DNA of 22,599 nucleotides, from the IMG/VR virus record IMGVR_UViG_3300030118_005341, positions 1 through 22,599 of that record; one strand, 5' to 3'. The DNA comes from a virus. The notes under the pieces were generated by a model, which saw only the letters and a list, made by a program, of their open reading frames with translations, did no database searches and was not told where the DNA came from. The stretch's first letter is position 1. Each line of letters opens with the position of its first letter. Of the stretch, positions 1,454 to 19,956 are shown in pieces. The translations under genes were made by a program, and so were the position numbers.

Positions 1454-2062
1454 ATGAATATATTTGTACTTGATAATGACCCAGTAATTGCTGCACAAAT
1501 GATGTGCGATAAACATATACCTAAGATGATTGTAGAATCAGCACAGATGTTGTGTACTTCTCATCGTTTACTTGACGGTAAGGAAATGAAACGTCCTTCG
1601 AAATCGGGTAAAAGAATGGTAAAGTACTGGGATCTATACGAAGGATCAGACGATCTTGAAGCTGAATTACTCTACTATGCCGCTGTACATACAGGCCATC
1701 CTTGTACTGTATGGACTATGAAATCAGAAGCCAATTATCGATGGCATTGGCAGCATCTACATGCTCTCTGCGACGAGTATACATATAGGTATAGTACAGA
1801 AAAAGAACCATACAAAACTCATAAGACTCAAAGAGAAATACTTTGGGCTATTCAAGCACCTCCAAGAAATATTCCGAAAGGTGGTTTGACAGAGTTTGCT
1901 CAGGCCATGAAGATGTATCCTGAATGTATGGTTCCTGGTAACGCTGTAAAGGCTTATCAAAACTATTACCATGTCGCAAAACATTTTGCTAAATGGGAAA
2001 AAGGTCGACCAGCTCCTGACTGGTGGAAAGGATACCAAGGTGCCGAAGTACACGCTGCGTGA
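1454..2062 (+). CDS. conserved phage protein of unknown function (MNIFVLDNDP family)
   Basis: This 202-residue protein is rich in His, Trp, Tyr and Cys. It opens with NIFVLDNDPVIAAQ, followed by MMCDKHIPKM (17-26) and ESAQMLCTSHRLLDG, then HTGHPCTVW, NYRWHWQHLHALCDEY, and near the end FAKWEKGRPAPDWW. I recognise this arrangement (LD.DP, CDKH..KM..E.AQ.L, HPC..W, LCDEY.YRY) as a family widespread in marine T4-like phages, but I know no established function. The clustered His, Cys and Asp residues could bind metal; this is only an inference. Transcription probably comes from the promoter at 1378. The ribosome binding site is weak. The 3' end overlaps the next gene by 23 bases. Confidence 0.75.
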   Translation: MNIFVLDNDPVIAAQMMCDKHIPKMIVESAQMLCTSHRLLDGKEMKRPSKSGKRMVKYWDLYEGSDDLEAELLYYAAVHTGHPCTVWTMKSEANYRWHWQHLHALCDEYTYRYSTEKEPYKTHKTQREILWAIQAPPRNIPKGGLTEFAQAMKMYPECMVPGNAVKAYQNYYHVAKHFAKWEKGRPAPDWWKGYQGAEVHAA

Positions 2063-4419: not shown

Positions 4420-4432
4420 TCACTTTAAGTGA
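4420..4432 (+). promoter_or_regulatory. palindrome TCACTTTAAGTGA upstream of promoter, candidate operator
   Basis: A 13-base inverted repeat flanked by A-tracts (nine A before, eight A after) ends exactly nine bases before the -35 at 4442. A near-identical palindrome sits at the same distance before the promoter at 19628. No T-run follows on the + strand, so it is not a terminator of the upstream gene. Binding of a regulator, or an UP-like effect of the A-tracts, is inference. Confidence 0.5.
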
Positions 4433-7768: not shown

Positions 7769-8748
7769 TGCAACCTTATGAAAGACTCGAAGTAGAATAC
7801 GCAAAACACACAAAAGTTGACCATGCCTGTGTCACAAACACCGGTACAGCGGCGCTTCATCTCGCGATTGAAGCGCTCGAATTACCTTATGATACTGAAA
7901 TTATCGTACCACAATTTACAATGTATGCTAGCGGTCTTGCTGTTTACTATGCAAGATTAAAACCTATCTTTATAGATTGTGATGAAAATCTTCTAATAAA
8001 TCTTGATGAGGTTGAAAGGTGGTGTGCAAAGAGCCCAAAAACTCGAGTGCTTATGGTTACTCATGTTTATGGCCGTCTTGTAGATATGGATCGTGTAATG
8101 GACATTGCTCAAAAATATGATTTAAGAGTAATTGAAGACGCGTGTGAAGCTCAAGGCGCGACATGGTATGGAGATCCAATAGGATCTTTCGATATCGGCT
8201 GTTTCTCATTTTATAGAAATAAAATTATACATGCTGAAGAAGGTGGTATAATAACTTCAAATGATAAAGAACTCATAGAAAAGGCTCGTGATATGAGATC
8301 TATGAGCTTTGGTGAAACGCATGATTATTATCATAAGCGTATTGGTTTCAATTATCGTTGTACAAATTCACAGGCTGAAATGGCACTTAAAAGTCTCGAG
8401 CATGTAGAATATAATTTAGCGGCTCGTAAAAATATATGTGGAATATGGAATAAAAAAGTTCCTGTAATATACAGAAGGCCTGATAACCGTGAATCTGTTT
8501 GGGTTTACGATATGCGACATAAGAATGCTGATGCTGTTGTGAAACGTCTTAAGGAACTTGGCATACCTGCTCGTCATTCATTTAAACCTTTATCTCTACA
8601 GCCATTGTTTAAAAGTGCTGGATGGAGGTCTTCTGAAATGGCAGCAAAGATGAGTCAAGAAGTATTCTATGTCAACGTACACCCAAAACAATTTGCAAAT
8701 ATTTATGATATGATAAAAACTACAGTGGAAGTTATGGATGAACTTTAA
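7768..8748 (+). CDS. DegT/DnrJ/EryC1-type PLP sugar aminotransferase
   Basis: From ATG 7768 (overlapping the previous stop as TGATG; 7756 is an in-frame alternative) the product has 326 residues. Signatures are TNTGTAALHLA (23-33), VPQFTMYAS, EDACEAQGA (123-131) with the cofactor-binding Asp124, and SFYRNKIIHAEEGGIITS, where Lys152 should be the PLP lysine. Such enzymes transfer an amino group from glutamate or glutamine to a keto sugar. Members usually have 360-400 residues, so this one is on the short side. It works most likely on the product of the upstream SDR enzyme. Confidence 0.87.
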   Translation: MQPYERLEVEYAKHTKVDHACVTNTGTAALHLAIEALELPYDTEIIVPQFTMYASGLAVYYARLKPIFIDCDENLLINLDEVERWCAKSPKTRVLMVTHVYGRLVDMDRVMDIAQKYDLRVIEDACEAQGATWYGDPIGSFDIGCFSFYRNKIIHAEEGGIITSNDKELIEKARDMRSMSFGETHDYYHKRIGFNYRCTNSQAEMALKSLEHVEYNLAARKNICGIWNKKVPVIYRRPDNRESVWVYDMRHKNADAVVKRLKELGIPARHSFKPLSLQPLFKSAGWRSSEMAAKMSQEVFYVNVHPKQFANIYDMIKTTVEVMDEL

Positions 8749-9550
8749 AATTATAACTACATTTAAAGATGCAATAAGAAAAGTACCAGCCGATCTCAAT
8801 CAATTAAACGATAAAGCAAGAAGACATTGGTTAAAAAATGGCGATGAAACTATCAGCCACGGCATGAGGTTTGCGCAACAGGCGGAGAAATATTTACCAA
8901 ACAACGCAACTTTACGCGTATACTACGAAGGCGAAAATCTACCTGAAAGTACTTCAAAAGTTGAATTTGTACCGCATGTATATGAAGCTGTAGAAAAATT
9001 TAAAAGTATTTCTAAAGATCGCTATATTAAAAAGAAACAGAGTTATTATACATGGGATGAAGAGAAAAGAATCAACCGTAAAAATTACGATTATGAATTT
9101 GAAGCTGTAAGATTTTGCCATCCTCCTTTGTCATTGATTGATTGCTACAGTAAAATCAAAGAGAGATATTTAGTATCAGTTGATGCTGACGTTTTTATAC
9201 ACGAAGATATTCCAGAAGATTTCTTTCCATCGCTGGTAACAGAACCTGCTTGCACATACTTTTTAAATCGTGCACCACACAAACATATGGAAAGCGGTTT
9301 TATTATATGGGATTCTCAAAATCCTTTTTACAGAAGATGGTTTAGTCTGTATAGAGGCATGTATGAAGGAGGAAAGATATATAATTTGTATGATGGTTGG
9401 ACAGATTGCCACGCGTTTGACAAAGTAAATAACGACCTTATAAAAGAAGGTATGAGAACAGTTCACATTGCAAGTCATCAAGCGAATAACGTATGGGAAG
9501 TTTCTCCTCTTCAAAAATACATAAGTCATTATAAAGGCAGTGCAATATGA
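8738..9550 (+). CDS. putative GT-A glycosyltransferase (cassette gene 4)
   Basis: The 270-residue protein carries a DAD motif (149-151) in LVSVDADVFIHED, followed by a MESGFIIWD block (184-192) and WTDCHAFD (221-228), which take the places of the NGG and DQ blocks of the GT8-like genes. The N-terminal half is charged and shows the start NFKIITTF typical of a first beta strand. It is less like 6027, 12875 and 13594 than these are to each other. Substrates are unknown. GGAAG precedes the start, and the gene overlaps the aminotransferase by 11 bases. Confidence 0.72.
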   Translation: MNFKIITTFKDAIRKVPADLNQLNDKARRHWLKNGDETISHGMRFAQQAEKYLPNNATLRVYYEGENLPESTSKVEFVPHVYEAVEKFKSISKDRYIKKKQSYYTWDEEKRINRKNYDYEFEAVRFCHPPLSLIDCYSKIKERYLVSVDADVFIHEDIPEDFFPSLVTEPACTYFLNRAPHKHMESGFIIWDSQNPFYRRWFSLYRGMYEGGKIYNLYDGWTDCHAFDKVNNDLIKEGMRTVHIASHQANNVWEVSPLQKYISHYKGSAI

Positions 9551-10224
9551 GAGCAAGAATAGTATACATTAAAGGTCATGAGGACAGCGAAAAACAAGCG
9601 AAACAGGCTTTTAGTTCTTTTAAACTTTACGGTTGGGAAGCAAAGGCAAAAGCAGGTCATACCAAAGAAAGTATTGAAACTGATCTAGAAATTATTGAAG
9701 GAAGTCGCCTTCACGACTTTAAAAGAGAGAACAAAAATCGCTATCTTACAAAAGTTGCTTGCGCACATAATCATATAGACTTTTGGCATAAAGTTGTTGA
9801 AGAAGATGAGCCAATGGCTTTTATAGAACATGATGGCGTATGTACTATGGAATGGAATAACGATTGGGAATTTGATGAGTATCTAATTCTCAACGCTGAA
9901 TGGGTATTTCAACCGCCGAATAAACTAGCACTCCAACAATTTAAAGACTTTTCGTGGTCGAGTTTTGGTGTATGTGACATGCCAGAAAATTATCCACTGT
10001 TATACTATAAAGAAAATATCTGGAAAGGTTCAATGATGGCTCCGGGTACGGGCGCGTACGCGCTCACGCCGCTTGGCGCTCAAAAATTAATTCACGCTGT
10101 TGAAACATATGGCTTTGATCAGTCAGATTACATGATAAATTCTTATAACGTTAAGATGCAGTATATTATGCCAAGTCCGGTAAAATTCAATACTGTTAAT
10201 TTAAGTACTTCATACGGACTATAA
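9547..10224 (+). CDS. GT25-like glycosyltransferase (cassette gene 5)
   Basis: The 225-residue protein resembles family GT25 (LPS beta-galactosyltransferase type): ACAHNHIDFW (71-80) at the place of the usual SH..LW block, FIEHDG with EHD at 94-96 where the family mostly has EDD, and GTGAYALTPLGAQKLI (167-182), the typical G..AY.....A..L block. Genes 14729 and 15412 share this arrangement and the EHD variant. Family members act at the membrane on lipopolysaccharide cores in bacteria; here the acceptor is unknown. The start overlaps the previous stop (ATGA). Confidence 0.75.
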   Translation: MRARIVYIKGHEDSEKQAKQAFSSFKLYGWEAKAKAGHTKESIETDLEIIEGSRLHDFKRENKNRYLTKVACAHNHIDFWHKVVEEDEPMAFIEHDGVCTMEWNNDWEFDEYLILNAEWVFQPPNKLALQQFKDFSWSSFGVCDMPENYPLLYYKENIWKGSMMAPGTGAYALTPLGAQKLIHAVETYGFDQSDYMINSYNVKMQYIMPSPVKFNTVNLSTSYGL

Positions 10225-18013: not shown

Positions 18014-18042
18014 TTTACATTTACCTGAAAGTATGATATAAT
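18014..18042 (+). promoter_or_regulatory. sigma70-like promoter
   Basis: TTTACA at 18014-18019, 17 bases, TATAAT at 18037-18042, with CTGAAAGTATGA in the spacer. Preceded by A-rich repeats. Transcription should start near 18049; an AGAGGAG ribosome binding site follows at 18061-18067 before ATG 18074. Confidence 0.83.
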
Positions 18043-18232: not shown

Positions 18233-18519
18233 TGGAAAAAGCTTTACACGATTATATCATGGCACAGCGCAAAGAAGCTGAGGAGTATTCAAAGCAGCCA
18301 GGTTGCTGGATGGGTATGATGCCACATCCAGAAGAGTTTGTCTACTGGTCAAGTCGTGTTCCTTCTGGAACTCTTAAAGAGCTTCTTCGTGTTGAGTTGG
18401 AAGAGTCGGCATATTACATCACTGCCGATCGTTGGAGCAAATCGGCTGCTCGTTCTCTTGATTTCCATAACTGGACCGATGAGAAACTCGAAGCTCATAT
18501 AGAAAGGATGAGCAAGTAA
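18232..18519 (+). CDS. hypothetical protein
   Basis: The 95-residue product is acidic and helical, with a Trp-, Met- and Pro-rich middle (QPGCWMGMMPHPEEFVYWSS) and amphipathic helices on both sides. GAGGAGG precedes the start at good distance, and both ends overlap neighbours as TAATG, so translation is coupled. I do not recognise it. Its codons are visibly richer in G and C than those of the glycan cassette. Confidence 0.7.
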   Translation: MEKALHDYIMAQRKEAEEYSKQPGCWMGMMPHPEEFVYWSSRVPSGTLKELLRVELEESAYYITADRWSKSAARSLDFHNWTDEKLEAHIERMSK

Positions 18520-18740
18520 TGTTACCGTTCGGTCGTCTATTGCATACCTATCAAGGGTGGTCTTATCGTGTAGAGGACGATCAAGACCCATATGATGGAA
18601 CGGTAAAAAAGACTCATTGTATGGTAGATCCAAAAGGTGTGCATCATTGGGAGTTTGATGAATTATGTAGTCCATACGAAATCGCGTCAGATAAAATGAT
18701 AGAAGATTTTGTGGCCTACAAGAGTTTCCAGCGGGGTTGA
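18519..18740 (+). CDS. hypothetical protein
   Basis: This 73-residue product (LPFGRLLHTYQGWSYRVEDD, HCMVDPKGVHHWEFDELC, SDKMIEDFVAYKSF) is rich in His, Trp and acidic residues, with two Cys that could bind metal together with the His pair; no known motif is complete. AAGGA lies about nine bases before the start. The last five codons lie in the 5' arm of a nine-base-pair inverted repeat (18726-18734 with 18767-18775), so the end of this gene is probably part of an RNA structure. Confidence 0.65.
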   Translation: MLPFGRLLHTYQGWSYRVEDDQDPYDGTVKKTHCMVDPKGVHHWEFDELCSPYEIASDKMIEDFVAYKSFQRG

Positions 18741-18977
18741 GCAACTTAGCTCCTCTCTCAGCTCCTCCGCTGGAATCCTATAGTCGAGTGAGTATAAACA
18801 CGGTTAAGCCTGTTAACGACTATAAATAAAGATACAGGTGGGATAAGGGCAATCCCTCAGTAGAAACCCTTACAACAATGGAGATCGCACCCAGCATTTA
18901 TATACTGGCTCTGCTAAATTTTCAAAGGGTGATGCCTCAATCCATCCGCGGTGGTCAACGGTTAGCCACCAACTAAC
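18726..18977 (+). ncRNA. candidate structured RNA or long leader, no coding capacity
   Basis: From 18741 to 18989 I see no credible gene: all frames are broken by stops. The stretch is richer in G+C than most of the window (112 of 240 bases at 18721-18960 by hand count) and full of pairing segments: 18726-18734 with 18767-18775 (nine pairs), 18779-18786 with 18817-18824 (eight pairs, TATAGTCG/CGACTATA), 18840-18844 with 18852-18856, whose loop 18845-18849 can pair with 18867-18871 to make an H-type pseudoknot, 18888-18892 with 18927-18931, and two mutually exclusive hairpins just before the next ribosome binding site: 18950-18955 with 18965-18970, or 18961-18965 with 18973-18977. It may be a separate small RNA or the leader of the gene at 18990. 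No known RNA class is recognised. Confidence 0.45.
18821..18828 (+). promoter_or_regulatory. possible T4-type late promoter TATAAATA
   Basis: TATAAATA is the complete late promoter consensus of T4. Here it lies outside genes, so that a transcript would begin near 18835, just before the possible pseudoknot, and run into the gene at 18990. Two other copies (635 and 5581) lie inside genes, so chance occurrence is quite likely in AT-rich DNA. Confidence 0.25.
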
Positions 18978-18989
18978 TTAGGAGTTAAA

Positions 18990-19202
18990 ATGTTAGAAGG
19001 TACTTTAGTATTCATGTGGCTGTTCAGTTTAGCAGAACGTGAATTTCTCGACGAAAAATTAAAGTGGAACGCAAAAGGTTACAATTATTGGAATCAAATC
19101 GAGTGTCGTGCTCCAGATCCTAATGCAAAGTCGATTGTAATCACAACACCGATAGGAAACGAATACGTATGCTTCAAACAAATGAACGTGAAACTTCAAT
19201 AA
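18990..19202 (+). CDS. small hypothetical protein downstream of the structured region
   Basis: The 70-residue product begins MLEGTLVFMWLFSLAEREF, a short hydrophobic segment that could enter the membrane only once and weakly, then DEKLKWNAKGYNYWNQIECR and a beta-rich end KSIVITTPIGNEYVCFKQM with two Cys. TAGGAG lies six bases before the ATG. The long structured leader upstream, with alternative hairpins ending next to the ribosome binding site, suggests post-transcriptional control. No family is recognised. Confidence 0.65.
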   Translation: MLEGTLVFMWLFSLAEREFLDEKLKWNAKGYNYWNQIECRAPDPNAKSIVITTPIGNEYVCFKQMNVKLQ

Positions 19203-19345
19203 AGTTTTATGACTTTATAATTATATCACCCTTTGCTTGGATTATAAGCCAATCAGTCTTACATGGTAATCCATTTTGGCTTATGATTGGCTATGTCTTT
19301 TTTCTACAGTATGCATATAAAAGGAGAGAGTACGTAAATGGATGA
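19169..19345 (+). CDS. possible small membrane protein
   Basis: This 58-residue frame fills the gap between two surer genes, overlapping the one before by 34 bases and the next by eight. The product has two hydrophobic segments (FYDFIIISPFAWIISQSV, then FWLMIGYVFFLQYAY), a short turn SVLHGNPF, and a basic end YKRREYVNG, which fits two membrane helices with both ends in the cytoplasm. The ribosome binding site is weak (AGGAAA about ten bases away). Against it stands a nine-base-pair inverted repeat at 19244-19284 inside the frame, which could mean that the stretch acts as RNA instead. Confidence 0.5.
   Translation: MLQTNERETSIKFYDFIIISPFAWIISQSVLHGNPFWLMIGYVFFLQYAYKRREYVNG
19244..19284 (+). 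repeat. nested inverted repeat
   Basis: ATAAGCCAA (19244-19252) pairs perfectly with TTGGCTTAT (19276-19284); inside it ATGG (19263-19266) pairs with CCAT (19271-19274). No T-run follows. It lies in the possible small membrane gene, upstream of the gene at 19338. Confidence 0.5.
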
Positions 19346-19601: not shown

Positions 19602-19605
19602 AAAA

Positions 19606-19618
19606 TCACTTAAAGTGA
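19606..19618 (+). promoter_or_regulatory. palindrome TCACTTAAAGTGA upstream of promoter, candidate operator
   Basis: A 13-base inverted repeat differing by one base from the one at 4420 and, like it, ending exactly nine bases before the -35 (19628). Preceded by six A. There is no T-run after it on the + strand. Same sequence and same phase at two promoters argue for a protein-binding site. Confidence 0.5.
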
Positions 19619-19627
19619 AATTAAACG

Positions 19628-19656
19628 TTTACATTATGCTGAAAATAGTTTATAAT
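19628..19656 (+). promoter_or_regulatory. sigma70-like promoter
   Basis: TTTACA at 19628-19633, 17 bases, TATAAT at 19651-19656, preceded by AAACG, with CTGAAAATAGTT in the spacer. The 37 bases from the -35 on (19628-19664) match those of the promoter at 21815 in 35 positions. GAGGAG lies before ATG 19687. Confidence 0.83.
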
Positions 19657-19686
19657 AGATTAGGTGTTAATTTTGAGGAGCATACT

Positions 19687-19956
19687 ATGGCACAAATGAA
19701 TATCACAAAAGACATGACAACTAAACAACGTTTAGCTGTTCTTCGTCGTCACTCTAAAAAATTCAATAAAAAGCTACAACGTAATCAACGTGTACGTAGG
19801 ACTGAAACAGAGTCTTATTTACCGTACGGCTATCCTGCATCGAAAGGTTATGATGATGTCAATATTAATGCGTGGACTGATGCTCCGCAGTATGCGGAAA
19901 AATATTATGGTGATCGTATGCGCGATACCGTTAGCCATGATAACGATTGGAACTAA
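19687..19956 (+). CDS. small hypothetical basic protein
   Basis: I choose ATG 19687, six bases after GAGGAG; the longer frame from 19615 would run through the promoter. The 89-residue product has a very basic N-terminal half (TTKQRLAVLRRHSKKFNKKL, QRNQRVRRTETE), suggesting binding to nucleic acid, and an acidic, Tyr-rich end (YGYPASKGYDDVNINAWTDA, AEKYYGDRMRDTVSHDNDW). No family is recognised. Its C-terminal part overlaps the start of the next gene. Confidence 0.7.
   Translation: MAQMNITKDMTTKQRLAVLRRHSKKFNKKLQRNQRVRRTETESYLPYGYPASKGYDDVNINAWTDAPQYAEKYYGDRMRDTVSHDNDWN

Follow-up and report, generated by a model that had tools for sequence, protein, structure and literature searches.

A probable noncoding phage RNA, not previously catalogued, with a conserved M4–D2 core in marine viruses

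The window, by which we mean the whole 22,599-nt stretch of viral DNA analysed here, contains an intergenic region between an ORF at 18519–18740 and a second, 70-residue ORF (Table 1). On the plus strand of 18741–18989 the longest reading frames comprise merely 24–32 amino acids and indels among relatives are not multiples of three, which bears out the initial annotation in regarding it as free of genes. The GC enrichment noted there was also confirmed, at 0.43 over 18501–19000 compared with approximately 0.36 typical for the window. No family was found for the downstream ORF, which is probably co-transcribed with the RNA rather than its defining partner. ARAGORN and Rfam revealed no tRNA or tmRNA in the window, nor were the tRNA-like domain and tag reading frame of a tmRNA found in it.

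Table 1. Positions, in the window, of the RNA modules and of associated signals
Feature	Position	Strand	Description
Sigma70-type promoter TTTACA-17-TATAAT, extended -10	18014–18042	+	11/12 consensus matches; strong, early-type; upstream of the operon of the RNA
P1 hairpin	18726–18775	+	Perfect 9-bp repeat 18726–18734/18767–18775; compensated in relatives
PK1	18779–18842	+	Helix TATAGTCG/CGACTATA (18779–18786/18817–18824), small hairpin, crossing helix
T4-type late promoter consensus TATAAATA	18821–18828	+	Inside PK1 region
PK2	18840–18871	+	GGG 18840–18842/CCC 18854–18856, crossing AAGGG 18845–18849/CCCTT 18867–18871
M4 hairpin	18887–18916	+	GCA/TGC then CCAG..TATA..CTGG, then conserved GCTCTGCTNAAT
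D2 two-hairpin module	18926–18972	+	Last 47 nt; R2 match 45.3 bits, E 6e-11
Downstream ORF	18990–19202	+	70 aa; SD GGAG 18981–18984

Screening of the whole window against Rfam 15 at the gathering threshold gave no matches. A search of the region against Rfam, which the initial annotation had proposed, was extended to E = 10 and produced nothing within 18726–18972; the sole match in a relaxed scan of 18400–19300 was to RAGATH-19 (E 8.2), which lies outside the RNA and represents noise. Two relatives (L041 and L059) and 18 D2 loci likewise matched no Rfam family at the gathering threshold, and relaxed thresholds yielded only noise. The minimum free energy of folding (z = -1.66, 11 of 200 shuffles being equally good) is weak on its own and was dropped as stand-alone proof, so that the case for structure rests on comparison with relatives.

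Both perfect inverted repeats that had been pointed out, of 9 and 8 bp, are present and form the stems of P1 and PK1. The P1 stem, TTCCAGCGG..CCGCTGGAA, is extended by GG/CT and GAGC/GCTC; by eye, P1 is a hairpin of about 15 bp closed by GAGC/GCTC and bearing a conserved loop, CTCCTCTCTC. On its 5' side it reaches into the final codons and the stop of the preceding ORF, again as described initially. In L016 the entire stem is replaced by the compensated pair TTCCGACAATG/CATTGTCGGAA. Within PK1, the small hairpin pairs GTG with CAC (18788–18790/18799–18801) and the crossing helix joins CCTG (18809–18812) to CAGG (18835–18838). Hairpin and crossing helix are 100% paired, with compensatory changes (CCTC/GAGG in L005, CCGG/CCGG in L062). 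The H-type pseudoknot suspected at PK2 is real in that both of its helices are kept in relatives: GGG/CCC is paired in 100% of cells, with compensatory change, and AAGGG/CCCTT in 72.5%, some relatives using other registers. D2 consists of AGGGT, a GATG/CATC stem with loop CCTCAATC, a CGCG linker, and a GGTGGT/GCCACC stem with loop CAACGGTTA. Pairing of the P1 loop CUCCUCUCUC with a GGAG preceding M4 was considered and rejected; GGAG is found in 16 of 20 elements with P1 compared with 4 of 10 without it, a weak association which kinship of the loci could produce.

Relatives were gathered with a 28-mer from the repeat and with the proteins of the flanking and neighbouring genes, and three covariance models (R1, R2 and R3, whose E-values are rough) were employed; R3 matches the window at 18887–18923 with 53.2 bits (E 4e-11). 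A degenerate pattern of the 3' half matched 47 stretches. The search of marine viral metagenomes that had been advised was productive: the arrangement seen in the window, with M4 just 5' of D2, recurs in some 30–31 distinct marine viral loci. When cultured phages were searched by BLASTN with the window region, no match appeared, and the copy at 46561–46647 in cultured phage Melnitz, which infects Methylophilales strain H5P1 and in which the modules are in the opposite order, was detected by covariance model only. Compared with L001, identity is 100% in P1 and PK2, 97% in M4 and 98% in D2, versus 59% in the spacer at 19602–19688 and 67–94% in the flanking ORFs; conservation is therefore higher in the helices of the RNA than in ordinary spacer. 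Modules of the 5' half can be exchanged, PK1 being swapped for a smaller pseudoknot-like element in seven relatives (L008, L014–L015, L017, L019, L021 and L023) and missing in three (L013, L020 and L022).

Covariation was assessed against shuffled and slid controls. The alignment of the 3' half (M4 plus D2) has 95.2% of cells paired and 41 double-changed, compared with 11.0 after shuffling; the pseudoknot alignment 92.1% and 30 (10.4 shuffled); and the M4 alignment 41 double-changed cells (16.5 shuffled). Kinship inflates covariation relative to shuffles; slid controls retain kinship, yet they too were far lower in every test. Rather than the uncompensated breaks that would speak against an RNA fold, every main helix shows compensatory changes. 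Together with the absence of an Rfam family and the many homologues in marine viral metagenomes, this strong covariation upholds the initial proposal of an undescribed, highly structured phage RNA.

A second primary-sequence pattern, which does not include M4, found D2 in at least 120 viral stretches. Since these copies were picked by primary sequence, pairing of their stems is an independent test of structure. Among the matches listed there are 68 distinct copies, 65 of which possess the full first stem (4/4 pairs, in one case 3/3) together with a second stem of no fewer than 6 bp; the stems are absent from the other three (L118, L123 and L169), which behave like fortuitous matches. An alignment of 33 sequences, picked for one loop register of hairpin 2 with hairpin 1 playing no part, has 100% of cells paired and 125 double-changed, compared with 32.5 after shuffling, and G-U pairs occur at covarying positions. 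Sequence is conserved in the loop of hairpin 1, the linker and the loop of hairpin 2. Mutual information also connects three positions of D2, namely base four of AGGKU, the final base of stem 1 and the opening base of loop 1, which tentatively suggests that the AGG of D2 may pair with NCU of loop 1 as a small pseudoknot.

The order and spacing of the two core modules vary. M4 lies 5' of D2 in the window, about 50 nt 3' of it in Melnitz and L132, and elsewhere 320–400 nt 3' of it with a gene between, the distance being about 320 nt in L112, L126, L133, L155 and L170; in L025 and L028 D2-like matches are found 5' of M4 as well. Since the two modules stay together in either order, it is suggested that folding brings them into contact or that both are recognised jointly. 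At many D2 loci M4 is not found in the vicinity, and the RNA may accordingly vary in extent from lineage to lineage. A split RNA acting from two distant loci was dropped as an explanation, M4 having not been found elsewhere in the D2-only contigs tested. In L028 (IMGVR_UViG_3300021335_000011, 8184–8966) a 260-aa ORF, which by eye resembles FkbM-type methyltransferases, lies inside the element near D2 and M4. A group I intron was considered on account of this gene and of the P3/P7-like crossing helices, and was dropped as its guanosine-binding core was not recognisable by eye and Rfam gave no match.

Model R2 finds exactly one copy of D2 in each of seven long viral contigs of 48–160 kb (G002, of 160 kb, and G003–G008) and one in phage Melnitz. 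The remaining isolates tested, among them HTVC008M, Mosig, T4 and several cyanophages, had no D2. Among 59 bacterial genomes the only match was to a phage contig binned in an Opitutia MAG, the remaining 58 being without D2; this contig (L092, NZKY01000163.1) is nearly identical to L005/L007 around the element and appears to be mis-binned. In L076 the element and its tRNA-Gly are present twice, inverted (1625–1710, plus strand; 9525–9610, minus strand), possibly an effect of assembly or of a terminal repeat.

The genes around D2 are diverse; their names rest on sequence recognition of the translated proteins or, for Melnitz, on the annotation of the record. D2 is flanked by tRNA genes on both sides in L104, L148 and L165, lies beside a permuted tmRNA in L146, L151 and L156, follows gp32 in L110 and L130, separates gp45 from gp44 in L106 and L138, is near hsp20 in L073 and L157, and precedes gp33 in Melnitz. 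The RNA is also located between tRNA-Leu and tRNA-Gly genes, before tRNA-Arg and after tRNA-Trp. In total, 23 of 97 D2 loci have a tRNA or tmRNA no more than 200 nt away, as against 9.4% of positions drawn at random from these loci, and all 23 are on the same strand as the tRNA or tmRNA; the window copy is not near either. D2 shares its strand with the downstream ORF in 82 of 92 cases. A permuted tmRNA is close to D2 in about 17 contigs. Such tmRNAs are common in this collection (L047, L050, L081, L107, L111, L112, L115, L117, L129, L132, L133, L144, L146, L150, L155, L156, L163, L168, L170, L181 and L190), many of them near D2. The RNA is carried by many ocean viruses of bacteria, usually in single copy and often adjoining tRNA genes, and it moves between unrelated loci.

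Of the 24 elements in which M4 lies upstream, 16 carry the late promoter motif TATAAATA 81–122 nt 5' of D2, a spacing which holds even where the intervening modules differ; at a background of 0.05 per 260 nt, about one occurrence is expected among 24 elements. By itself the motif is not unusual in the window. A T4 late promoter consensus of this type is named for Melnitz in its description (PMC9004378). The motif is present in 20 of 30 window-type elements; of the ten that lack it, nine are next to a tRNA gene. These counts come from related, non-independent sequences and are indicative only. The simplest reading, equally indicative, is that tRNA-adjacent copies would be co-transcribed with the tRNAs and others from their own late promoter. 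A promoter-like sequence of about 40 nt (TTTACA..TATAAT) recurs in the window at 4432, 17346, 18004, 19618, 21220 and 21815, these probably being early promoters.

By analogy, the RNA fits a phage stable RNA in its manner of working, and it matches none of GOLLD, ROOL, T4 rnaC/rnaD or manA. GOLLD and ROOL (PMC12286853) are likewise phage or prophage RNAs without known function which are often near tRNA islands, as are 23 of the 97 D2 loci though not the window copy itself; in GOLLD the 3' region is conserved and the 5' region variable, and ROOL is marked by prominent pseudoknots. The RNA in the window is much smaller (about 250 nt, with a core of about 85 nt), and the models for both gave no match in the window or the scanned D2 loci. 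The manA (RF01745) and wcaG (RF01761) RNAs (PMC2864571) resemble it in occurring in marine T4-like phages and in combining several hairpins with a pseudoknot; in cyanophage S-CREM1 they lie within a tRNA cluster, and in L146 D2 is 5' and manA 3' of the tmRNA. Their models gave no match in the window up to E = 10, and S-CREM1 has no D2. In that phage (L225, OP535465.1, 9745–10643) tRNA genes flank the wcaG, manA and abiF RNAs; although both bear a cis-regulatory label, manA and wcaG occupy a tRNA island.

T4 rnaC and rnaD (species 1 and 2) are comparable as small RNAs encoded at the end of a tRNA cluster in a T4-like phage. Models R1–R3 do not match them (T4 70908–71171), the weak T4 matches (E 0.12–0.25) being elsewhere in the genome. 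T4 rnaD (L097, 1554–1672) contains TGATGCCCTCTTACATC, resembling the D2 stem-loop TGATGCCTCAATACATC; homology on the strength of this look-alike (TGATGCC..ACATC) was rejected as unsupported by the covariance models. In Melnitz a permuted tmRNA (RF04321, RF01849) and a glutamine riboswitch directly adjoin D2, whereas D2 and M4 are separate sequences outside both Rfam models. For that stretch, the passages of PMC9004378 consulted mention nothing beyond the tmRNA and the riboswitch.

The initial annotation had seen, in two competing hairpins directly before the Shine-Dalgarno element, the layout of a riboswitch or translational switch. The RNA would then be a cis-acting leader that controls translation of ORF 18990–19202 and serves as 5' UTR in a late mRNA whose start is at about 18835. 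A T4-type late promoter motif does precede the PK2-M4-D2 part, and two observations favour a leader and count against a trans-acting RNA: in the lineage of the window the RNA always ends 15–23 nt before an SD, and several of the downstream genes look alike. We nevertheless regard a leader as unlikely, because the downstream gene changes from locus to locus and the competing hairpins lack conservation. Only a minority of relatives have GTTAG/CTAAC exact in that place, the SD is unpaired and outside D2, and the region of the RNA has no terminator at which exclusive structures could form. The neighbours range from tRNA-Leu/tRNA-Gly, tRNA-Arg, tRNA-Trp and tmRNA to gp32 and gp45/gp44; instead of one fixed gene or pathway, tRNA genes, gp33, gp44, hsp20 and unrelated ORFs follow, and in L052 and L029 the RNA is succeeded by tRNA-Gly or tRNA-Arg and no ORF.

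That D2 could be a terminator, or a processing or stability signal ending operons and tRNA or tmRNA precursors, appears quite improbable. D2 often directly follows a stop codon, tRNA or tmRNA, and in the gp32 loci it comes last ahead of a convergent gene; at least five T follow 11 of about 95 copies, a terminator-like feature which again counts against a trans-acting RNA. D2 is, however, single-copy per genome whereas terminators and processing signals recur, its loops and linker show a sequence conservation that termination does not require, and in the window it is followed by no T run or terminator call. A DNA-level element, such as an origin or packaging site with its inverted repeats extruded as DNA hairpins, would agree with one copy per genome and with frequent proximity to the replication genes gp32, gp44, gp45 and gp33, but is very hard to reconcile with G-U pairs at covarying positions of D2, with covariation of the crossing pseudoknot helices and with an orientation that tracks transcription.

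We therefore favour, with a probability of roughly 0.6, a noncoding phage RNA from a hitherto uncatalogued class, with an M4 and D2 core and a replaceable 5' half, that acts in trans; it looks free-standing rather than a switch for the neighbouring gene. Hairpin M4 and the two-hairpin module D2 would constitute the conserved 3' core, and the 5' half would be made up of replaceable elements, the hairpins and H-type pseudoknots of P1, PK1 and PK2. Transcribed with tRNA or tmRNA genes, or elsewhere from its own late promoter, the RNA would then probably be trimmed to a discrete, stable form acting in trans during infection. Because it accompanies tRNA and tmRNA genes, our first guess at its target is the translation or RNA-turnover machinery. 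The broader proposal, in which D2/M4 is a widespread marine phage RNA acting in trans on the translation or RNA-decay machinery of the host, single-copy, site-moving and with domains that may be permuted or split by genes, is tentative and in our estimation falls just short of even odds. Directly supported here are the fold, the single D2 copy in eight wholly searched D2-bearing records, the movement and the swap in order of M4 and D2; the many D2 loci without M4 and the absence from the related isolates tested count against a trans-acting RNA.

These results give some abundant viruses of the ocean an RNA class that is both uncatalogued and strongly supported. The covariance models and the pattern permit annotation of the RNA in existing genomes, and since cultured phage Melnitz carries D2/M4, the element is testable in at least one isolate. 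To our knowledge, no function has been firmly established for the small phage RNAs beside tRNA genes, such as T4 rnaC/rnaD, GOLLD and ROOL. A compact, single-copy and movable module of 47 nt offers a tractable entry to the function of small phage RNAs.
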